Source: a virus. Taken from it: a DNA stretch of 49,564 nt. The stretch is from positions 1-49,564 of IMG/VR virus record IMGVR_UViG_3300035698_010549. One strand, 5' to 3'. A program made the translations under genes and the position numbers. This document shows, piece after piece, positions 3,021-27,570 of the stretch. The first letter of the stretch is position 1; each line of letters begins with the position of its first letter. The notes under the pieces are model-generated. The model was given only the letters and a program-made list of their open reading frames with translations. It was not told where the DNA came from and searched no databases.

Positions 3021-4631
3021 ATGGCCAACAACTTCAGCTACCGAATTATCCGACCGCGCCCAGCGTCGGACGAGCCGAACGCACGCGGCGCTGCGTACAT
3101 CGAGATGGAGGAGGACTGGGACCTTGTGAATGCGCTCATGGAGGGCACGCAGAAGATGCGGGATGAGGCGCTGTTCTGGTTGCCAGCCGAACGGAAGGAG
3201 ACGAAGGAGGCACACCGCGACCGGATCAACCATACGTTTCTCTTCGAGGCGTATTCCGACACGGTCGAGTCCCTCGCCCATCGCCCGTTCGTCAAGCCGG
3301 TTACGATCGAAGAGCCTGACCTCATGCCCGATCAACTCGCGGATATCGAGGAAGACGTGGATCGTGGTGGACGCGATCTGACCACGTTCTGTGGTGCGGT
3401 GTTGCAGTCATCGATTGCCCGCGGGCACTGCGGCATCCTGATCGACTACCCCGCTGTCGGTGAAGGGCTGTCGCTCGCGGAGGAACGATCGACCGGGGCA
3501 CGACCGACATTCGTGAAGGTTGACGCACACCACATTCTTGGGTTTAGATCGTACAAGGATGAAGCGGGCGAAGAGAAGCTCACGCAAATCCGACTTCAGG
3601 AATTCATGACCGTGCCTATCGGCACATTCGGTGAGGAGTCACGCGAGCACGTGCGGGTGATCTCCGCGCCGGGCGAACCTGTGCCCCTGCCGAAGAACAT
3701 GAACTTCGCCAAGGGCGTAACCTCCGAAGAGGTCGCCAACGTGATCGCCCGCGCCGAAGGTGGGTCGGGTCATTGGCAGCTGTGGCGTAAGAGCGGTGAC
3801 TCGTCGGGGTGGGAGCTCGTGGGCATCGGTGTCCACTCATACCCAGGCGTCCCATTCGTCGTCCATTACAGTAAGCAGCGTGGGTTCCTTCGCAGCAAGC
3901 CCCCGATGATGCCACTCGCATGGATGAACTACCGTCACTGGCAGTCATCGTCCGAGCAGAACGTCGGGCTGCAGCATGGCCGCTTTCCCATGCTGTTCTT
4001 CAAGGGGCTCACCGCCCAGGAATTTGAAGATCCCATCGAGATCGGGCCCACTCGTGCATTCAAGTCGCGTAACCCAGACGCGGATGCGAAGTGGCTCGAG
4101 ATCAGCGGTGCCGCCCTGAAGTCCGGCGCCGATGACCTTCGCGCCCTGGAAGAACGCATGGAAATCCTAGGGCTCGAGCCGATGGTCGAACGCAGCGCGA
4201 ACTCCACCGCGTTCGGTAAGGCGGTGAACCAGGATCGCAAGCACTCACGTATCCAGGCGTGGATCCGCCAGCTTGAGAACGTCATGTTCGAAGCATACCA
4301 GGTGGCCTCGACGTGGGTCGGAGCTGGTAAGCTCAACCCGGACATCGGAGTTGCCATCTTCAGCGACTTCGGTGTCAAGGCGAATGCCGAAGGGGTCGGC
4401 AAGCTGCTCAATGAGTCTCGTGAGAAGGGGCTCATCTCGCAGCACACTTATCTTCGGGAGATCATCCGTCGCGGCATTATCGATGAAGGCGTGGACCCCG
4501 ACGAAGAGGCCAGCCGGCTCGAGAGTGAACCCCCGCCGATGGGCATGGTGCCCGCGTTGAATGCAGCAGAGGGTCAGGACGAAGATGAAGACGAGGGCCG
4601 GCCGTTCCCTGGCGAAGAAGGCGGTGAATGA
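3021..4631 (+). CDS. Portal protein (DUF4055 family)
   Basis: The portal is the dodecameric ring at one capsid vertex through which DNA enters and to which the tail attaches. This 536-residue protein resembles the DUF4055 portal family. An early segment with a Leu-Pro motif (FWLPAERKE) is followed by an Asn-His-Thr-Phe turn and a stretch about stopping before domain entry (SLAHRPFVKPV). The C-terminal crown is very acidic (EDEDEGRPFPGEEGGE). It sits directly before the MuF gene, the usual order, with an ATGA overlap. The start has AAGGAA upstream. Confidence 0.85.
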   Translation: MANNFSYRIIRPRPASDEPNARGAAYIEMEEDWDLVNALMEGTQKMRDEALFWLPAERKETKEAHRDRINHTFLFEAYSDTVESLAHRPFVKPVTIEEPDLMPDQLADIEEDVDRGGRDLTTFCGAVLQSSIARGHCGILIDYPAVGEGLSLAEERSTGARPTFVKVDAHHILGFRSYKDEAGEEKLTQIRLQEFMTVPIGTFGEESREHVRVISAPGEPVPLPKNMNFAKGVTSEEVANVIARAEGGSGHWQLWRKSGDSSGWELVGIGVHSYPGVPFVVHYSKQRGFLRSKPPMMPLAWMNYRHWQSSSEQNVGLQHGRFPMLFFKGLTAQEFEDPIEIGPTRAFKSRNPDADAKWLEISGAALKSGADDLRALEERMEILGLEPMVERSANSTAFGKAVNQDRKHSRIQAWIRQLENVMFEAYQVASTWVGAGKLNPDIGVAIFSDFGVKANAEGVGKLLNESREKGLISQHTYLREIIRRGIIDEGVDPDEEASRLESEPPPMGMVPALNAAEGQDEDEDEGRPFPGEEGGE

Positions 4632-7264
4632 TGTCCCTGAACACCGAGCTCTACGATGATGCCGTCCGGCATTCGATCATGTTGTCTCGATTCCGCGAGG
4701 CCGAGGTCCGCCAGATCCTGGCGCTGTTGAATAACCAGGTCGTCCCCGATATGCGGGAGCGATTCGTTGGGCGACTCGAGGGGATCAAGCGTCGGGGATT
4801 TGACAAGGGTCAAACCTCCACGGGCAAGATCCGCGACGCCATCAACGAGATGGACAGCATGCTCACCGGCGGGATGTCGATGATGCGCTCCCGTCTGCAG
4901 GAGGACTTGTTCGGGCTTGGTGTTACAGAAGACGAGTTTATGCGGGCGAGCGTGCAGGATCGCTTCCCGATGAACCTCACGATGAATCGGCCCAGCACTG
5001 AGACACTGCGCTCGATTGTGACCTCACGGCCAATGCAAGGTCGACTGCTTCGTGAGTGGTGGTCGGGGATCGACACCAACACTAGGGCGGGCATCCGACG
5101 GAACTTCAACGTCGGGGTCGCTTCGGGTGCGAGCAATTCGGCCATCGTCAAGAGCATCTTCGACGGTGACGGGTCAACGATCGGCACGACCCGCAAGCAC
5201 GTGGCCGGTGTCGTCCGCACCGCAACCAACCACGTGAGCGCGAACGCCAGGGAGGAGACGTATAAGGCGAACTCCGACCTTATCAAGGGCGTCCGCTACG
5301 TCTCGACCCTGGACGGGCGCACTACACCCATCTGCATCGGGCTCGATGGTAAGGTGTTCGATATCGACGACGGCCCTCGCCCACCCCAGCACTTCTCGTG
5401 CCGATCGACCACAGTGCCCGTACTGAAGAAGGCGAGTGAGCTCGACCTGCCTGGGTTGAAGGACCTGCCCGAAAGCACACGGGCGAGTGTCGATGGGCAG
5501 GTGCCTGCCACTGAGACGTACGGGAAGTGGCTCAAGCGTCAACCGATCTCACGGCAGGAAGAGGTGCTCGGCAAGGCGCGTGCGAAGTTGTATCGCGAGT
5601 CCGGGCTGAAGATCGACAAGTTTATCGACAAGTCGGGCGAGTATTACAACCTGCCCCAACTTCGCAAGAAGCTGGGGCTGAAGGAGGACATCGCGTTCTC
5701 CGACCCCGTTGAGCAAGCGGCGTTCGGCCCCATTTCAGGCGATCCCGTAGTCATCCAGAACGAGATTAACGATCTTCTCGAACAGTTGCGTCTTGCGACT
5801 GATCCGAAAGAGAAGAAGCGCCTCAGAGGCGCTCTACGCCGGCGAGGGCACACCGGTGGGGTCAAGCCAACAGTGCAAACGACAATCGCCCCACCCGTCA
5901 CCCCAACGGGATCGACCGCGGCCCCAACGACCACCACGGGGACGACCGCGGCTCCAACGACTACCACGGGGACGAAGAGCACGGTCGCGCCGCGAAAGAC
6001 GACGGACATCACTGTGCCCAAGGATCTGACCACGACTCGCATTCGCAAGCGAGGGAAGAACCTGCGTACGCTGGTGATCCACTTCATGGCCGACGACGGG
6101 TCAGTCATCCGTGAAGTTAAGTACCGCCAAGAGAAGATCGATGGGCAGTGGATCACGACCGGCGAGATCAAGGGCGCACGCACCGTACCGATTGCAGGCG
6201 TAACAACGCAGACCACGCCCGCGCCCGCGGTCATCAAGAACGGGCGGATCGTATCGTCGGGGTCGCTAGAATCAGGCGAAGAAATACGCGACCGGCTGAA
6301 GCCCCTCGCCGACATTGCCGCCAGGCGAATCCAATTAGAGAAGACCGCCGAGATCAAGCGGCTCGAGGCCGAGCGCAAGCGGATCATCAAAGAGCGGGAC
6401 GACGCGAGACATCAGATCAGGCGCGAGGCGTTCGAGATGATCGAAAATAAGGGCGGGCTCACCTACGACGAGTACAGGTCTGAGCCGATCAACTACCCCG
6501 AACAGGCGCGTCAGATGTACTCGGCCATCCGGAACAATAAGGCGCTGAAAGATCGGGATTTCGAGCAGACGTCGGTGGTGCTCCCCTCGCCGCCAGCCGG
6601 GTGGCGCGTTGACTACGATACCAACGAGTTCAAGGTGGACGACGAGTTGCAGAGTAAGGCGAGACGAGCGCAGTTCCGCAAGGAAGTGCACGAGATGGTA
6701 AAGGTGCCGCGTGGGCGACAGAACGACTTGGCCGTCACCCCGGCCAGGTCCAGTGAAACCAAGGGTGCCAAAGCGCCCAGCCCAAAAGTCGTCAAGAAGG
6801 CTGAGACCGCGATCAATTGGATTAACGAGCGCTCGGTCCCTCAGCCTGGTCAAGTCCAGGAAACCGTGGTGTTCCAGATGCGTGGCCGTGCGTACGCGAG
6901 CGGCACGAGTGTAAACCTCGCCGCGAGCGACGGTATCGACACACACGTCCATGAGCTGTTCCATGTAATCGAGAACCGCACGATGGGCTGGCAGGACAAG
7001 GCCCGCAAGAAGCTCCGCGAACGTGCCGACGGTGAGGCGCTTGAGCCGCTCAGCAAGTTGACCGGGAGCAGTGGCTACGGCCCCGACGAGCGGGCGTGGA
7101 AGGACAAGTTCATCAACCCTTACCAGGGTAAGTACTACTCGCATGGGTCGACTGAGATAACGACCATGGCCGCAGAGCTGCTGTACCGTGACCCGCAGAA
7201 GTTGTATGAAGAGGACCCGGACATGTTCGTCTGGATCGTTAACCGCATGAGAGGGCTCAACTGA
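4628..7264 (+). CDS. MuF-type head morphogenesis protein fused to a zincin-like metallopeptidase domain
   Basis: The 878 residues are clearly modular. Residues about 100-265 are the SPP1 gp7/Mu gpF minor head domain, ending in the hallmark STLDGRTTPIC and PPQHFSCRS (253-260). An RRxxLRxxGHTGG-like motif follows (398-411), then a Thr/Pro/Ala-rich linker with a repeated AAPTTTTGT unit (416-450) and a Lys/Arg-rich coiled region. The C-terminal domain has a zinc-protease signature, HELFH (775-779), with downstream Glu residues (843 or 850, in STEITTMAAE) as possible third ligand. MuF proteins sit inside the capsid and can be ejected with DNA. MuF-enzyme fusions are known as phage-borne polymorphic effectors. 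The zincin here could be an ejected effector or a maturation protease. Confidence 0.88.
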   Translation: MMSLNTELYDDAVRHSIMLSRFREAEVRQILALLNNQVVPDMRERFVGRLEGIKRRGFDKGQTSTGKIRDAINEMDSMLTGGMSMMRSRLQEDLFGLGVTEDEFMRASVQDRFPMNLTMNRPSTETLRSIVTSRPMQGRLLREWWSGIDTNTRAGIRRNFNVGVASGASNSAIVKSIFDGDGSTIGTTRKHVAGVVRTATNHVSANAREETYKANSDLIKGVRYVSTLDGRTTPICIGLDGKVFDIDDGPRPPQHFSCRSTTVPVLKKASELDLPGLKDLPESTRASVDGQVPATETYGKWLKRQPISRQEEVLGKARAKLYRESGLKIDKFIDKSGEYYNLPQLRKKLGLKEDIAFSDPVEQAAFGPISGDPVVIQNEINDLLEQLRLATDPKEKKRLRGALRRRGHTGGVKPTVQTTIAPPVTPTGSTAAPTTTTGTTAAPTTTTGTKSTVAPRKTTDITVPKDLTTTRIRKRGKNLRTLVIHFMADDGSVIREVKYRQEKIDGQWITTGEIKGARTVPIAGVTTQTTPAPAVIKNGRIVSSGSLESGEEIRDRLKPLADIAARRIQLEKTAEIKRLEAERKRIIKERDDARHQIRREAFEMIENKGGLTYDEYRSEPINYPEQARQMYSAIRNNKALKDRDFEQTSVVLPSPPAGWRVDYDTNEFKVDDELQSKARRAQFRKEVHEMVKVPRGRQNDLAVTPARSSETKGAKAPSPKVVKKAETAINWINERSVPQPGQVQETVVFQMRGRAYASGTSVNLAASDGIDTHVHELFHVIENRTMGWQDKARKKLRERADGEALEPLSKLTGSSGYGPDERAWKDKFINPYQGKYYSHGSTEITTMAAELLYRDPQKLYEEDPDMFVWIVNRMRGLN

Positions 7265-7500
7265 TGGTTGAATTGACCCACCACGAACGACAGTTCCTGG
7301 TCGTTGACAACTTCACAATCGTGCTCTCGTCCCCGGGATGGGATACGTGGCTCGAGGGCATTGGCGACCTGGGGAGCGGGCCGTTGGAAAGTCGGTTGCT
7401 TGCGATGTCGCTCCCCGACGACGTGGCGGTGCTCTACACGCCGACCTCCAACAGCGAGTTGTGGCCCACCGCGATCGATGGAGAACCAATAGACTACTAG
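7264..7500 (+). CDS. Hypothetical small protein
   Basis: This 78-residue protein starts at an ATG sharing one base with the stop of the MuF-zincin gene. It is acidic, Leu-rich and has no membrane segment or recognised motif. Its direct coupling to the MuF gene makes it a candidate partner. If the zincin is toxic or needs control, a small coupled protein could be its chaperone or inhibitor, but nothing in the sequence shows that. A promoter-like sequence begins at its stop. Confidence 0.7.
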   Translation: MVELTHHERQFLVVDNFTIVLSSPGWDTWLEGIGDLGSGPLESRLLAMSLPDDVAVLYTPTSNSELWPTAIDGEPIDY

Positions 7501-17292: not shown

Positions 17293-18261
17293 ATGGGATT
17301 CCACGAAGTACAGTTCCCGGATGACATTAGCTGGGGATCGCAAGGCGGCCCGGGCTTTCGTACCAACGTTATCTCGCTCGACTCGGGGGCGGAAGAACGT
17401 ATCGCTCGATGGGACGATGCCCGTCGGCGATTCAACGCAGCGTACGGCGTCAAGTCGTATAGCCAGCTCAAGACCCTGGTCGACTTCTATATCGCCCGTC
17501 GAGGGCCGGCATTCGGATTCCGTTACAAGGACTGGGCTGACTTCACGACCGGGACGAACGGATCGGGCGCCCACACTGCGCTTGATGTGGTGATCGGCAC
17601 TGGAAACGGGAGCCTCACCCAGTTTCAGATGAACAAGCTCTACACCAGCGGGGGCATCACCCGAACCCGGAACATCACCAAGCCTGTTAGCGGCACGTTG
17701 CTCGCGGCCGTCGATGCGTCCGCCCTGGTCGAAGGCGTTGGATACAGCGTGAACTACGCCACCGGGGTCATCACCTTTAGCAGCGCGCCCGGGTCGGGCC
17801 TTACTGTGTCTGCAGGGTGTGAGTTCGATGTGCCCGCACGATTCGGCGAAGAGGTCGACGATGTGCTCATGTTGTCGCTTGACGACTTCGGGTCGGGGTC
17901 CGCCGAGGATATCCCGATCGTTGAGATCATCGACAGCACCGCAACGAACGGCGAGTTCTTCTTCGGCGGTGCACGCGAGCGCGCTACGGCCATCGACATC
18001 AGCATCTCGACTCTCGAGGGCAGGGTGCACTCGATCGACCCCACCGCCAGCGGGGTCGACGTGAAGCTGCCGACGAAGTCAACCATGACACCAGGCGGCC
18101 CACTGTTCTACATCAAGAACGTGTCCGGGGCCGAGTCGCTCAACGTCGTCGAGTCCGACGCTGATGGTAATACCGCGATTGCCACTGTCGCCGCGGGTGG
18201 GTGCGTTACCATTATTCTATCGTTCAATGGGTCGAGCACCTACACCTACTACGCATTCTGA
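17293..18261 (+). CDS. Distal tail protein, DUF2460, with an added C-terminal beta domain
   Basis: The first 210 residues match DUF2460 (GTA ORFg12 type), with FPDDISWGSQGGPGF, RWDDARRRFNAAYGVKS and FYIARRGPAFGFRYKDWADF. This protein caps the tube and holds the baseplate hub. The C-terminal extension (about 240-322) is not part of the family. It has a core of DVKLP, then GGPLFYIKNVSG, then AGGCVTIILSF. The same arrangement is found at the N-terminus of the adjacent glycosyltransferase. The start ATG directly follows the tape-measure stop. Confidence 0.88.
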   Translation: MGFHEVQFPDDISWGSQGGPGFRTNVISLDSGAEERIARWDDARRRFNAAYGVKSYSQLKTLVDFYIARRGPAFGFRYKDWADFTTGTNGSGAHTALDVVIGTGNGSLTQFQMNKLYTSGGITRTRNITKPVSGTLLAAVDASALVEGVGYSVNYATGVITFSSAPGSGLTVSAGCEFDVPARFGEEVDDVLMLSLDDFGSGSAEDIPIVEIIDSTATNGEFFFGGARERATAIDISISTLEGRVHSIDPTASGVDVKLPTKSTMTPGGPLFYIKNVSGAESLNVVESDADGNTAIATVAAGGCVTIILSFNGSSTYTYYAF

Positions 18262-18270
18262 GGCACCCCA

Positions 18271-19866
18271 ATGACCATCTCGATCGAGGAATTCTACGGC
18301 GGGGCTAGTGAGATCGCCCTGAGCGAAGACACCCAGCTCGTCGAAGCGCTCAGCCGGGTGAAGGTGCTCAACGCCACCGACCCTAATCTGTCAGTGCTCC
18401 TGCCGAATGCGCTGCTCCCGAGCATAAAGACCGGCGGTCCCGTTCTGTATCTTGTGAACCCATCATCCTTCGAGATCGCTATCCTGGATTACGAGCAGGA
18501 GTATACCGGCGAGGTCGTACTACAGAACACTATCTGCTCGTGTTACCTGGTCGATGACAGCACTCCCGGGGGAACGTGGCGGTTCAGGTGCAGTCCGATC
18601 GCTTCCGCGACCACCGCGACGACCACGACGACTGCGGGCACAACCCCGACCAGCCGCACCACCACCGTCAGCACGACGACTACTACCGCGCTGACGACAA
18701 CCAAGCCCGCCGTCACGACCGCGCCGAACGGGTGGGGCGACGACATAAGCACAAGCACTCCGCCCTGGGCAGACACTAGCTTTATTTCGTCCACAGTTAT
18801 TAGTGCGTTCGCCGACCCGGATACGTCTCCGTGGGGCGAGCTGTTCGACATCCCCGTGGCGCGTATGCCATCGACGATCAAGTGCTCGGTCATCGTTACC
18901 GCGATGAACGAAGGCCCCGACCTTGAAGCGACGATCATCTCGCTGCTGCGGGCGGATCGTCGCCCGGACGAGATCATCGTGGTCGACGATAACAGCAGGG
19001 TCTCACTCGAGACGCGAGTGCTTCGGTTCGAGGACTTCGGCGTTCGCTACATTGGCAACGACCAACGCCTCGGGTGTGCGGCCTCACGTCAGAAGGGTAT
19101 CGACGCAGCGAAGCACGACGTGCTGATCCTGGTCGACAGCCACATGGCGTTTCCCCCGTGCTGGCTCGACCGCATGCTTCGCGCCCACGTTGAGTTTCCG
19201 CGTGCGATCTTGTGTCCCGTGTCCGCCGACCTGAACACTTGGGTTGGTAGCAATGCTGGCGGGCACTGGGGAACGGGCGCCGTGCTGCGTCAGACGACCA
19301 GCGGTATTAGATCGCTGTGGTGTCGGATGCGTGCGAACGCGGAGTATTGCCCCAAGACGCCCGGCATGATGGGTGCGTGCTACCTGATCCCCCGAGATGT
19401 CGCTGAGGGCATAGGGGGGTGGTCGCACGGATTGAGGGGCTGGGGACTCGACGAAGAGTTCGCCTGCGCCCGCGCTTGGATGTGTGGTTACGAGGTGCGG
19501 CTTGTTACTGACACCGCAGTCGCTCACCAATACATGCGGACGGGGTTCGTGCTCAACCGTGAGAGCGCAGCGGGCACGCCCGATCCGTCGTGGCGACTTA
19601 CGTACAACCAACACTTCGTGTCTCGTATCATCTATGGCACTGAGCGGTGGGCGCGTGAGCTTCGCGCCGGGATCTATCGGCACGCGCCCCATGCGTTCGC
19701 AGGCGTCGAGAAGGAAATGGCAGACCGGGCGGATGAGATCGCTGAGCTCGAATCCGCATTCAACCAGCGCCGCATCATGGGCGTTGACGACATGATGGAC
19801 TTGCTTGAGGATGTCGAGATTGAATCCAACATCGGTTTTGACGAGTCAGCAGAGGAGGCGGCGTGA
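18271..19866 (+). CDS. Virion-type domain fused through a Thr-rich linker to a GalNAc-transferase-like glycosyltransferase
   Basis: The 531 residues have three parts. Residues 1-110 form a beta domain like the C-terminal domain of the preceding distal tail protein. Residues 112-152 are a Thr-rich, mucin-like linker with runs such as TTATTTTTAGTTPTSRTTT. Residues about 204-425 are a GT-A glycosyltransferase resembling polypeptide GalNAc-transferases. This part has SVIVTAMNEGPDLEATI, VVDDNS, a DSH metal motif (289-291) in place of DXD, ILCPV, and GWGLDEEFACARAWMCGYEV followed by VAHQYMR. Family members transfer GalNAc from UDP-GalNAc to Ser/Thr. The enzyme lies within the tail-tip gene order. 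Donor and acceptor are inferred, and another sugar is possible. Confidence 0.85.
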   Translation: MTISIEEFYGGASEIALSEDTQLVEALSRVKVLNATDPNLSVLLPNALLPSIKTGGPVLYLVNPSSFEIAILDYEQEYTGEVVLQNTICSCYLVDDSTPGGTWRFRCSPIASATTATTTTTAGTTPTSRTTTVSTTTTTALTTTKPAVTTAPNGWGDDISTSTPPWADTSFISSTVISAFADPDTSPWGELFDIPVARMPSTIKCSVIVTAMNEGPDLEATIISLLRADRRPDEIIVVDDNSRVSLETRVLRFEDFGVRYIGNDQRLGCAASRQKGIDAAKHDVLILVDSHMAFPPCWLDRMLRAHVEFPRAILCPVSADLNTWVGSNAGGHWGTGAVLRQTTSGIRSLWCRMRANAEYCPKTPGMMGACYLIPRDVAEGIGGWSHGLRGWGLDEEFACARAWMCGYEVRLVTDTAVAHQYMRTGFVLNRESAAGTPDPSWRLTYNQHFVSRIIYGTERWARELRAGIYRHAPHAFAGVEKEMADRADEIAELESAFNQRRIMGVDDMMDLLEDVEIESNIGFDESAEEAA

Positions 19867-20753
19867 TGGCATTTGCTGGACCCAATTCACACAATGCCCT
19901 GAAGCCCGAGACGGTTCGACACATCGCCACGCTGTACAAGATCACTCGTACGGATGGAACAGTGTTCCGCTTCACGGATCACAATTCACCGCTGTCATTC
20001 GGTGGTCAGACATTCGCCCCTGGCGGCGGAGCGCAGTTCACCGCGGCCGAGAAGCAGTCGGGGCTTCAGTCGGGCAACACCGACAGCATTGGTGTGCTCG
20101 ACGATGCGAACATCACCGAAGACGACCTCCGTGCCGGTCTCTACGACCGTGCCGATGTCATTACCTACCTTGTTGACTGGCGCTACCCCTGGGCTGGGGC
20201 GATGCTTGAGTCTCACTACATGATCGAGACGGTCGACTACGAAGAAACGATGTGGAGAGCGGCCCTGGCGACTAAGGCACGACGCCTGCAGCAGCGCGTT
20301 GGCCGCACGTACACCCGTGACTGTCAGTGGGTGTTGGGTGACTCTAATTGCGGGATTAATGTCCCCGCGATCACGGTCGCTGGCGAGATCACTTCGATCA
20401 ACACGCAGCGATCGAGGTTCAGAATTGATCTGAGCCCCGCGGTCAATCAACTGTATCGGTACGGGATGGTCGTGTGGACGAGTGGCGCGAACGACGGGTT
20501 AAGCTTCGAAGTTCGTAACCACACACTGCCCGTGGGTGACGAGCAGATCGAGCTCTTCGAAAACACCCCGTACGATATGGTGGTTGGTGACGAGTTCACG
20601 GTTCACCCGGGCTGTGCCCGATCGAAGAACCATTGTCGAGGCACCACGGGGAGCGGCGGCCGACCATGGACTAACAATATCGCCAAGTTCGGCGGCTTCC
20701 CCGACCTGCCCGGAACTGACGAGCTTCTCATCACTGCCGGCACTCGGACGTGA
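19866..20753 (+). CDS. Baseplate hub component, DUF2163 (GTA ORFg13-like)
   Basis: The 295 residues match DUF2163 proteins. The N-terminus has TLYKITRTDGTVFRFTDH and FGGQTFAPGGG. A central YLVDWRYPWAG precedes GRTYTRDCQWVLGDSNCG. The C-terminus carries paired Cys residues and the typical AKFGGFPDLPGTDEL. These proteins form the hub ring below the distal tail protein. AGAGGAGG at 19850-19857 fits ATG 19866 best. A GTG three bases earlier is also possible. The start overlaps the glycosyltransferase stop. Confidence 0.9.
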   Translation: MAFAGPNSHNALKPETVRHIATLYKITRTDGTVFRFTDHNSPLSFGGQTFAPGGGAQFTAAEKQSGLQSGNTDSIGVLDDANITEDDLRAGLYDRADVITYLVDWRYPWAGAMLESHYMIETVDYEETMWRAALATKARRLQQRVGRTYTRDCQWVLGDSNCGINVPAITVAGEITSINTQRSRFRIDLSPAVNQLYRYGMVVWTSGANDGLSFEVRNHTLPVGDEQIELFENTPYDMVVGDEFTVHPGCARSKNHCRGTTGSGGRPWTNNIAKFGGFPDLPGTDELLITAGTRT

Positions 20754-21166: not shown

Positions 21167-23748
21167 TGGCCACGCTTGCCCTTGCCGCTGTCGGCAATGT
21201 AATCCTACCTGGGATCGGGGGGGCCATCGGTGCGGCCGCCGGCGCGTACATCGACCAGGCATTCGTTTTCCCAGCATTGTTCGGGGGCCCGCCCGATCAG
21301 AACATTGAAGGCCCCCGCCTCGACGAGTTCCGCGTGCAAACCGGGGCCGAGGGCGGCGGTGTGATGTTCGCCATGGGCCCGGAGTGTCGCATGGGCGCGA
21401 CGGTGCTGTGGTACAGCGGCATCCGCGAGATCACCACGACAACCAGCAGCGAAGTCGGGGGCAAGGGCGGCGGAGGTCAGACGGTCAACGAGACTGAGTA
21501 TGAGTACCAGGTTGACCTGCTTGCTGGCGCGTGCGAGCGCATCACCGGGTCGATCGTCCGCATCTGGGCTGACTCGAAAGAAATCTACAACGCCGCGAGT
21601 GGCGTGACCATCGCATTCGATAACACTTGTGACGTGGCGCTGACTGCTAATGGAACTGAGCTGTCGGTCAGCGCACCCGCTAACCCACCCGATCTCCTGC
21701 AGTTCGTGAGCGGGAAGCCATTGACTATGACCGGCTGGGACAACGCGGTCAACAATGGCACCTTCACCGTGACCCGCACTGAGGATCGTGACGACGGTTC
21801 GGTGTGGGTTTACATGGAGAACCCTGACGCGGATAACATCTCGGAAACGGCCGACTGCGGGCGCACCGTGGGGTTTAGCCAAGCGCTTGGTTCATTCGAC
21901 CCACGGATCACTGACTCGATCACCGTGTACGATGGATCGCAGACCACGGCCAACGCGATGTACGCGGCAGTGAAGGGAACAGATAGCGCACCCGCCTACA
22001 CCGGGTTGGCGTACGCCGCTATCGAGACGCTGCGCTTGACCATGTTCGGTAATCGAATGCCCCATCTCAACTTCGAGGTCGAAGCCGACACCACGCTCAA
22101 CGTGGGCCAAGCGATCGGTAAGCTGATTAATCGGACCGAGGACCTCAGCGCTTCTGATTACGTGGTCAGTACGCTCACCGATACATTCCGCGGGATGGTG
22201 GTTGAAGGACCGCAGCACATCCACCGCCTGCTCGAGCCTATCATGATGGCGTACGATGTCGGGATGCGTGAGTCGAGCGGACTTATGTATTTCTACGCCA
22301 TCGATTCCGAGGAAGACGAGTTCATAATCCCCCAGAGGGATACCGCGGCGCACACCGGGGCGAGCGCTCCATCCCCGATGAAGTTCGAGCGGCCAGATCC
22401 GCGACTACTGCCGTCGTCGGTGACGGTGACGTTCCTTGATCCCGCCCGAGACCTTCAGAACGGGTCCGTGCACTTTCACCGCCAAGACGTGCTCGCCCGT
22501 AACGAAGTTAACATGCGACTGCCATTGTCGATGACCCCCACCGAAGCCAAGGGTGTTGCTCGTCGTCGACTGTGGCGAAGTTGGCAACGATCGGTGGGCG
22601 TGTCCATGACGCTCAGTCCCAAGTATTGGGATCTCGAGGAGGGCGATGATGTCACTGTGACCAACGGGGGCGAGACTTACCTGATCGCCGTGGGTCGAGT
22701 GATCCGCGGGGCCCAGGGCATCATCGAAGTCGAGGGCGTAATCAAGTCAGCGGCAACGTCTGACACCGTAGACGTGGAAGGCACCGTCGTCCAGGGGTCG
22801 GGTGTATACACTCCGCCGCACGTTACTCTGCTCATCATGCAGCTCCCCGCCCTTACCTCGAGCGAAGAGACTAACCCTGGTTACTACTGTGCGATGTGCG
22901 CCAGTGATCGAGACGCGGGTTGGGCTGGCGGCTTTGTCTTCGTGTCACCCGATGATACTACGTTCACCCAGAACAGTGTGGCCACACTCGAGGCCACTGT
23001 CGGCACGACAATCGGCGCACTCGCTGATGGGCCCGTTGGATACTGGGACCGTAGTGCATCGGTGCAGATTTTACTGCTACACGGTGCACTCGTGTCCGTG
23101 ACCGAAGAGGCCGCGCTCGCGGGAACTGGGTGGCTACTCATCGGCGATGAGATTGTTGCGTACCAGGATGTGGTCGCGGACGGTGACAACAGGTACACGG
23201 TCAGCACGCTGCTCCGGGGCCTTCGGGATACGTGGGACGCGACGAGCACGCACGCGGCCAACGATCGAGTCGTGCTGCTCACGCCCGGCCCCGTAGCATT
23301 CAAGACAATCAGCGGGAGCGACATCGGGCTGACCCGATACTTCAAGGGAGTATCGTCGGGCGCCGACGAAGCGGATTCCATCTCACAGTCGGCCACGTAC
23401 AATGGTCAGAACATCCGATCATTCTCGCCCGTCGAAATCGCCGCGACCCGAGATGGTAGTGACAATATGACCATCACCTGGACGCGACAGTCACGCGCTG
23501 TCACCCGGTTGTTCCGCGAAGGGGCGGAGGTGCCCTTGCTGGAAAGCGTCGAAGACTACCGCGTCGAGATCCTTGATTCGCCGGGGGGAACCGTGCTTCG
23601 CACGATCACTGCTTCATCACCGACTGCGTCCTACACCGCAGCAGAGCAGACGACCGATGGGCTCACACCGGGTGACCCCGTCGACCTTAACATCTACCAG
23701 CTCGATCCCACTAGCGGTGCAGGCAAGGGACGGGAGGCTACCGTATGA
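21163..23748 (+). CDS. Central tail tip / host-specificity protein (J-like, GTA hub type)
   Basis: The 861 residues begin with a hydrophobic Gly/Ala-rich segment (VILPGIGGAIGAAAGAYI), typical of J/GTA hub proteins. A first domain follows with YEYQVDLLAGAC. An inserted beta-sandwich with GWDNAVNNGTFTVTR resembles the insert of the tail tube protein. The central part has TLRLTMFGNRMPHLNFEV and SDYVVS, as in the phage-tail-3 family, and the C-terminus carries fibronectin-like strands. This is the tip spike that contacts the cell surface. ATG 21163 or 21166 can serve as start, and AGGAGT lies upstream. Confidence 0.9.
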   Translation: MMATLALAAVGNVILPGIGGAIGAAAGAYIDQAFVFPALFGGPPDQNIEGPRLDEFRVQTGAEGGGVMFAMGPECRMGATVLWYSGIREITTTTSSEVGGKGGGGQTVNETEYEYQVDLLAGACERITGSIVRIWADSKEIYNAASGVTIAFDNTCDVALTANGTELSVSAPANPPDLLQFVSGKPLTMTGWDNAVNNGTFTVTRTEDRDDGSVWVYMENPDADNISETADCGRTVGFSQALGSFDPRITDSITVYDGSQTTANAMYAAVKGTDSAPAYTGLAYAAIETLRLTMFGNRMPHLNFEVEADTTLNVGQAIGKLINRTEDLSASDYVVSTLTDTFRGMVVEGPQHIHRLLEPIMMAYDVGMRESSGLMYFYAIDSEEDEFIIPQRDTAAHTGASAPSPMKFERPDPRLLPSSVTVTFLDPARDLQNGSVHFHRQDVLARNEVNMRLPLSMTPTEAKGVARRRLWRSWQRSVGVSMTLSPKYWDLEEGDDVTVTNGGETYLIAVGRVIRGAQGIIEVEGVIKSAATSDTVDVEGTVVQGSGVYTPPHVTLLIMQLPALTSSEETNPGYYCAMCASDRDAGWAGGFVFVSPDDTTFTQNSVATLEATVGTTIGALADGPVGYWDRSASVQILLLHGALVSVTEEAALAGTGWLLIGDEIVAYQDVVADGDNRYTVSTLLRGLRDTWDATSTHAANDRVVLLTPGPVAFKTISGSDIGLTRYFKGVSSGADEADSISQSATYNGQNIRSFSPVEIAATRDGSDNMTITWTRQSRAVTRLFREGAEVPLLESVEDYRVEILDSPGGTVLRTITASSPTASYTAAEQTTDGLTPGDPVDLNIYQLDPTSGAGKGREATV

Positions 23749-24428
23749 CCACGACCGCAAACCTGAATCTCGCATTGCTCGCCGAAGCGCAGGCCAATGC
23801 TCACGCCACACACAATGAAGCTCTCATCAAGGTCGACGCGCTGACACACCTGCTTGTCGAAGATCGGGACGAGAACGACGAAGACAACACCACGCCCACG
23901 AACGGGCAAGTGTGGCTCGTTGCCGCGACTCCCGCTGGCGGTGACGCATGGGAGGGGCAGACGGGTAAGCTCGCGATCTACGTGGACGGATGGCAATTCC
24001 TCAGTCCGCGGGAGGGCATGGTTGCATGGATCAAGGACGAAGACGTGCTGCTCGTGTACGATGGCACCGCGTGGTCGGACGGATCGTCGGGGACAATCGG
24101 TGCGTCGAGCGTCGGTGTCGGGAGTCCCTCTGCCGGCGATGCGGACCTCGGGCGATTCGATGTTGCCGTTACCATCACTTCGATCACGAGTGTAATCGCC
24201 GCGGGGACGAACGTGGTTTGGCGACTGCGTCACTCGACTGATCGATCGGCGGCGGGCAACGCGGTCACGGGGGCGAACGTGACCACGACAAGCACGACCA
24301 CGGGCGACGTGACCACGACGTTCTCAGATGCGACCGTGCCCGCTGACTCGTGGGTCTGGCTCGAAATCGTCAGCGTCTCGGGGGCGGTCGACAACTTCGC
24401 CCTTTTCGTCGAGTTCACGATCGATTGA
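23745..24428 (+). CDS. DUF2793 tail-tip accessory protein
   Basis: The N-terminal half of this 227-residue protein matches DUF2793 of gene transfer agents: TANLNLALLAEAQANAHATHNEAL, a WLVAATPAGGDAW segment and LVYDGTAWSDG. The family is thought to bind the cell surface or capsule at the tail tip. The C-terminal half is a beta domain containing a Thr-rich stretch TTTSTTTGDVTTT (180-192). The start overlaps the hub gene stop by 4 bases. It is the last rightward gene before the convergent leftward block. Confidence 0.85.
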   Translation: MTTTANLNLALLAEAQANAHATHNEALIKVDALTHLLVEDRDENDEDNTTPTNGQVWLVAATPAGGDAWEGQTGKLAIYVDGWQFLSPREGMVAWIKDEDVLLVYDGTAWSDGSSGTIGASSVGVGSPSAGDADLGRFDVAVTITSITSVIAAGTNVVWRLRHSTDRSAAGNAVTGANVTTTSTTTGDVTTTFSDATVPADSWVWLEIVSVSGAVDNFALFVEFTID

Positions 24429-27165: not shown

Positions 27166-27570
27166 TCATCCGGGGTCGATCATTTCCAGGTGCAGGTTGT
27201 GGTTCGCGGCAGGGGCGATCTTGTATGTGGCGCCGTCGATCATCAGGTGATCGCCGAACTCAACATCGATCGTCAGCGCGGCCTCAGCTGCCTGCTCACG
27301 GGCCTTGTCGCTGGGGCGCATGTTCGAGATGATGACACACATTCCGAAAGCGGAGGCATGTGGCCCAGGGAGGAGCGCCCCGAACGAGACGCGGCGGTCT
27401 GATTGGTTACGCCCGGTGACGCACAGCTGGAAGCGGTGAAGCCCCATCCTAAGAATTGTGTCGGTCTTGACGGCGGCCATCTTGTCATGGAACGTGCCAT
27501 CGAGATCAAAGCCCATGGTGGTGACGGGGTAAGTGGGGACGGTGTGGGTCGTGGTCGTGGTCGTGGTCAT
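27166..27570 (-). CDS. Hypothetical protein with an N-terminal Thr run
   Basis: This 134-residue protein starts at ATG 27570 with seven consecutive Thr codons and a Thr/Pro/Val stretch (THTVPTYPVTT). A compact domain follows, beginning GFDLDGTFHDKMAAVK and with several strand-like segments. The leader contains CGAAACGGGATC, a run of CA dinucleotides and CGAGG. An alternative start at the second Met (before GFDLDGTF) would remove the Thr run. The DLDG string recalls HAD enzymes, but the other HAD motifs are not seen, so I make no functional call. Confidence 0.7.
   Translation of the reverse strand: MTTTTTTTHTVPTYPVTTMGFDLDGTFHDKMAAVKTDTILRMGLHRFQLCVTGRNQSDRRVSFGALLPGPHASAFGMCVIISNMRPSDKAREQAAEAALTIDVEFGDHLMIDGATYKIAPAANHNLHLEMIDPG

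Follow-up and report, generated by a model that had tools for sequence, protein, structure and literature searches.

A GalNAc-transferase-like glycosyltransferase gene in the tail-tip cluster of an uncultured phage and its association with threonine-rich proteins

What does a glycosyltransferase do among the genes for a phage tail tip, and what might it modify? The question is raised by a stretch of viral DNA of 49,564 nucleotides (IMG/VR record IMGVR_UViG_3300035698_010549, here called the window), in which a single reading frame between a distal tail gene and a baseplate hub gene encodes a spike-type N-terminal domain, a threonine-rich linker, a GT-A glycosyltransferase with a DxH motif and a helical C-terminal tail. 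The original prediction had placed a glycosyltransferase gene at 18271-19866, and the frame found here (18271..19866, +; 531 aa, ATG start) matches it exactly, as do its two neighbours.

The tail-tip locus and the architecture of the protein

The gene upstream (17293..18261, +) codes for a distal tail protein of the DUF2460/Rcc01695 type (1.6e-64). The gene downstream (19863..20753, +) overlaps the stop codon of the glycosyltransferase gene and codes for a baseplate hub protein of the phiJL001 Gp84 type (Phage_phiJL001_Gp84_N and BR0599, 8.6e-43); it is followed by an NlpC/P60 gene and then by tip genes of the Rcc01698 type. In RDJL3 the distal tail gene directly adjoins the hub-type gene, with no insert between them. 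The arrangement seen in the tail-tip cluster of the window, a phage-encoded glycosyltransferase adjoining structural genes, is repeated in most relatives of the enzyme.

Residues 1-107 of the protein (18271..18591, +) are predicted to form a beta domain of a virion type (pLDDT of the model 87.3) with the signature F-x-GG...L...GG...N. When the predicted structure was used as a query, the best fold matches were domains of phage tailspikes and capsid spikes, the top one with an E-value of 2.4e-4 and the others weaker. The signature recurs at the C-terminal end of the upstream distal tail protein, where a copy of the beta fold is present, and in relatives of the phage the domain type also occurs as a stand-alone carrier protein. 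From the fused spike-type domain and the position of the gene we infer that the glycosyltransferase protein would be virion-bound. In MW202657 (locus L095, 7043-8311) the N-terminal domain is fused to a kelch-like protein, and both the threonine-rich tract and the glycosyltransferase are absent from the region read; this fusion suggests that the domain is an adaptor with interchangeable payloads. MW202545, a phage without the glycosyltransferase, has an N-domain-like protein that lacks the threonine-rich tract.

The mucin-like linker that had been predicted to lie in the same chain was found at about residues 111-152 (18601..18726, +). With 20 threonines in 30 residues it is the densest threonine tract of the whole window. 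All four threonine codons are in use (11 ACC, 7 ACG, 3 ACT and 2 ACA), so the tract is not a simple DNA microsatellite. We propose it as the acceptor of the enzyme. A second mucin-like tract (TTIAPPVTPTGSTAAPTTTTGTTAAPTTTT...; 5864..6025, +) lies in a Mu-F-like minor head protein (ORF 4628-7264) and is a possible second acceptor; homologues of this head protein on related glycosyltransferase-bearing contigs have no mucin-like tract, and it is therefore not a family trait. Elsewhere in the window a short ORF on the minus strand (27166-27570) starts with MTTTTTTTHTVPTYPVTT and contains 12 threonines in 30 residues, and a DUF2793 protein (23745-24428, +) is threonine-rich over a smaller stretch close to its C-terminal end (11 in 30).

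The glycosyltransferase domain and its kinship

The glycosyltransferase domain occupies residues 204-424 (18880..19542, +) and was recognised by sequence and profile matches as well as by a fold search with its model (pLDDT 79.8, pTM 0.83). Pfam assigned residues 206-378 to Glycos_transf_2 (7.6e-23; 81.7 bits against a curated cut-off of 23.3), a broad model whose match does not fix the substrate. GalNAc-T2 was the top match in the PDB when the window protein was searched as a single sequence (7.4e-14), and it likewise came first for a relative at 33-36% identity (5.1e-15). A profile of the family matched GalNAc-T2 over its entire catalytic domain at 2.5e-26; the best enzyme other than a GalNAc-transferase was some eleven orders worse (about 1e-14) and the match was limited to the N-terminal half. 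In the fold search against the PDB, GalNAc-transferases filled all 50 of the top matches listed (best 5.6e-18), with moderate TM-scores of about 0.6-0.7 of the query. Polypeptide GalNAc-transferases, the kind of enzyme that the original prediction had proposed, are thus the closest enzymes of solved structure.

The motifs named in that prediction are all present: DSHM at residues 289-292, GWGLDEE from residue 390, CGYEV, and VAH with His419. The Asp-Ser-His of the first (residues 289-291; 19135..19143, +) is a DxH motif that is predicted to bind metal and aligns with the DSH of GalNAc-T2, and the histidine in the VGH of GalNAc-T2 has its counterpart in His419 (19525..19527, +), which is predicted to be the third metal ligand. 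DSHM and His419, which include all three predicted ligands, are identical in 14 of 14 members of the family, down to about 25% identity, and the motif match is therefore more than chance. In the family alignment a Tyr or Phe stands two residues past the third histidine. Shared with GT27, as represented by human GalNAc-T2 and Toxoplasma GalNAc-T3, are the GT-A fold, the DSH, the W-G loop and the third metal histidine; these enzymes also give the top matches in sequence and fold, and the phage enzyme has Thr/Pro-rich, acceptor-like sequences near it.

In other respects the phage enzyme departs from GT27. The WGLDEE loop (residues 391-396; 19441..19458, +), equivalent to WGGENL of the GalNAc-transferases, has Glu395 at the place of the GT27 Asn. 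Across the family the loop reads WG-x-x-[E/Q], as against WGGEN in GT27, and the Asn position is taken by Glu in 13 of the 14 members and by Gln in one. The domain is followed by a short helical C-terminal tail (19543..19863, +), and neither the Pfam scan of the protein nor the model gave a ricin B-type lectin domain, which is typical of GT27 but not universal in it. Identity to GT27 is about 20%, a very long branch separates GalNAc-T2 from the phage members in the family tree, and the phage enzyme, which a virus encodes, is fused to a virion-type protein or lies next to one. The claim of a GT27-like enzyme thus survives as regards the closest fold, the DxH motif and the third histidine. Because of the replaced Asn, the lectin domain not found and the long branch to GalNAc-T2, membership in GT27 itself is unsupported, and the same three points leave the predicted specificity for GalNAc without support. 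As these GT27 features are missing, we call the enzyme GalNAc-T-like and assign to it neither a sugar nor a stereochemistry.

A similar comparison can be made with the GT7 family of beta4-galactosyltransferases. In the inverting GT7 enzymes (beta4GalT1) an acid serves as the catalytic base at the column where GT27 has the Asn of WGGEN, and the phage enzyme has an acid at this position too. Moreover, in the WG-loop region there are matches to Pfam Glyco_transf_7C, which exceed the cut-off in several members. GT7 enzymes, however, use DxD and not DxH, whereas the motif of the phage enzyme is DSH, and solved GT7 structures were far weaker in the profile search (0.0018, over a short C-terminal stretch). 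The phage family therefore has neither the DxD of GT7 nor its best similarity there, and we do not count it as a member.

Distribution and coupling to threonine-rich tracts

DNA-motif and profile scans found relatives on about 20 IMG/VR contigs, which fall into about eight deep lineages without firm order; because the scans started from exact motif seeds, remote members may be missed. Two matches of the DSHM motif scan, L222 and L224, were rejected as chance, and in L219 no ORF with DSHM was found after the scan. With three members as queries, tblastn found no member of the family in 50,697 records of isolated phages, the weaker matches there being generic GT2-type enzymes. A pattern scan of GTDB found none in the genomes scanned, and an Rfam scan gave no match.

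In three cases tract and enzyme are fused: in the window and in L066 and L068, to which it is most closely related. In the other relatives a gene of its own encodes the enzyme and directly follows another gene, which is threonine-rich in most of them. The two genes mostly abut or are set off by an overlap or gap of a few bases, and in L090 the spacing is 196 bases. The upstream gene is threonine-rich in L003, L061, L034, L048 and L090 (the last with more than 40 threonines in one run), and more weakly so in L020 and L031. With threonine-rich taken as at least 11 threonines in 30 residues, the enzyme or its upstream partner was threonine-rich in 10 of 13 enzyme units, as against 2 of 113 other genes at the same loci (Fisher p ~9e-11); representatives were counted and phylogeny ignored, so this p overstates independence because the members share descent. 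A density of at least 14 in 30 is reached in 6 of the roughly eight deep lineages. Exceptions without a clear threonine-rich tract are L079/L081 (9 in 30), L085/L017 (7 in 30) and L093/L054 (5 in 30), the last pair being Ser/Gly-rich.

At least four types of protein carry the tract: one with the N-domain, a 131-aa ORF on a podovirus-type contig (L003), and two from the tail region, the C-terminus of an 825-aa protein (L061/L080) and a 524-aa protein (L034/L083). This variety speaks against a single inherited accident. Some of the stalks resemble mucin repeats, with TTTAPGTTTAPG in L083 and TTTEAPTTTE in L003. A reverse search, which was able to detect GT2-like enzymes only, started from poly-Thr ORFs at 69 other viral loci and found a glycosyltransferase-like ORF at two of them and an adjacent one at none; threonine runs alone therefore do not predict a glycosyltransferase. 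Phages often have such runs, which may serve as plain linkers. Of the targets that the original prediction had offered, the threonine-rich linker of the phage itself has gained strong if indirect support from the enzyme genes lying directly behind threonine-rich genes in most relatives, and this pattern of adjacency supports a putative O-glycosylation of a threonine-rich virion stalk.

A possible role in virion glycosylation

On these grounds we think it probable, with some reserve, that the product of the gene is a metal-dependent GT-A polypeptide O-glycosyltransferase, belonging to a phage-specific family near but distinct from GT27, which modifies the threonine-rich stalk of the virion. In the host cytoplasm, during or before assembly, the enzyme would take a sugar off its nucleotide donor and attach it to Thr (and Ser) in the mucin-like stalk of a spike-type virion protein beside the tail tip. 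In the phage of the window stalk and enzyme form one chain, so each copy would modify either itself in cis or a neighbouring copy; most relatives would supply acceptor and enzyme from adjacent separate genes. The most likely effect of the glycan would be to keep the stalk extended, hydrated and resistant to proteases, or else to mask the tail surface. Two features count against this explanation, as they widen the range of possible substrate classes: an acid where GT27 has Asn, and the length of the branch that leads to GalNAc-T2.

It might be thought simpler to regard the protein as an ordinary GT2-type enzyme whose target is a polysaccharide of the host surface or a lipid-linked sugar, altered for example to block superinfection, with the threonine tract as a tether. 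Such enzymes are frequent in phages, Pfam assigns the domain to Glycos_transf_2, and there is a weak PHROG match to GtrB-like O-antigen conversion (8.8e-4). What makes this explanation unlikely is the location of the gene within a tail-tip cluster, fused to or next to a spike-type domain, and the fact that threonine-rich carriers recur beside the enzyme family, whereas poly-Thr tracts are generally not found beside glycosyltransferases. Nor was a transmembrane segment evident when the sequence was read by eye.

That the protein is a true mucin-type GT27 enzyme, a retaining one that uses UDP-GalNAc to place alpha-GalNAc on Thr or Ser of the stalk, we consider quite doubtful. The loop reads WG-x-x-[E/Q] in place of WGGEN, the ricin lectin was not found and GalNAc-T2 lies on its very long branch, and these features outweigh for us the DSH, the third histidine, the Tyr/Phe two residues on, the top rank of GalNAc-transferases in every search and the mucin-repeat look of the L083 and L003 stalks. 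UDP-GalNAc is not universal in the bacterial cytosol, and among the window ORFs scanned (a subset) there was no sugar-nucleotide gene. Finally, it is very improbable that the domain is a tail-borne module that binds sugars in host recognition and makes no use of its catalysis: the fusion to a spike-type domain among the tail-tip genes would suit such a module, and outside cells no nucleotide sugars are to be expected, but the DSH and the third histidine are invariant (14/14) and most relatives encode the enzyme separately, without a virion domain.

If the enzyme is indeed a glycosyltransferase acting on the virion stalk, it would not be the first to act on a phage particle, since phage-encoded virion glycosylation as such is already known from mycobacteriophages, by glycosyltransferases unlike the present one. 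These phages glycosylate capsid and tail-tube proteins with enzymes of their own (Che8 gp110, Corndog gp38; Freeman et al. 2023, as cited in PMC12363180). The likeness would lie in the phage origin of the enzymes and in virion proteins as their putative or known targets. The enzymes themselves differ: DSHM is absent from Che8 gp108-110 on reading, a comparison with gp109 gave a probability of 2.5%, and the Che8 glycosyltransferase genes lie outside any tail-tip cluster with a threonine-rich stalk. In the open-licence PMC literature we found no description of a phage GalNAc-transferase.

Further modification of the putative glycan is hinted at by methyltransferase-like extensions or neighbours of the glycosyltransferase in L090 (4229-5614), L048 (1197-2711) and L078 (7008-7361). 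The gene after the L003 glycosyltransferase resembles the GXM/IRX15 sugar methyltransferases, with a match at 9.4e-6 that narrowly misses the curated cut-off. The enzymes of L048 and L090 have similar-looking C-terminal extensions, with a weak methyltransferase match in L090 only (0.0084). We put forward, tentatively and as a possibility that falls somewhat short of an even chance, that uncultured phages have a mucin-type O-glycosylation of their own, composed of a GalNAc-T-like enzyme with a remote kinship to eukaryotic GT27, a densely glycosylated threonine-rich stalk on a protein of the tail tip or another part of the virion and, in some lineages, a sugar O-methyltransferase, with the protein of the window as a self-modifying spike.

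In broader terms, the gene arrangements suggest that a small group of uncultured phages may sugar-coat parts of their own particle. If this is true, phages would join eukaryotes in having mucin-like stalks served by a dedicated polypeptide O-glycosyltransferase, and the side-by-side pair of enzyme and acceptor would be of use for work on bacterial O-glycosylation. Phages may in this way have a new means of protecting or extending their tail-tip proteins, and the family would provide a phage outgroup for the question of how GalNAc-transferases originated.

A separate observation concerns L054, one of the Ser/Gly-rich exceptions. At 3893-7462 it encodes a large tail protein of 1189 aa, in which an intein- or Hint-like stretch (SFVAGTPIKLASGQEIPIEDVRVGD) was spotted by eye.
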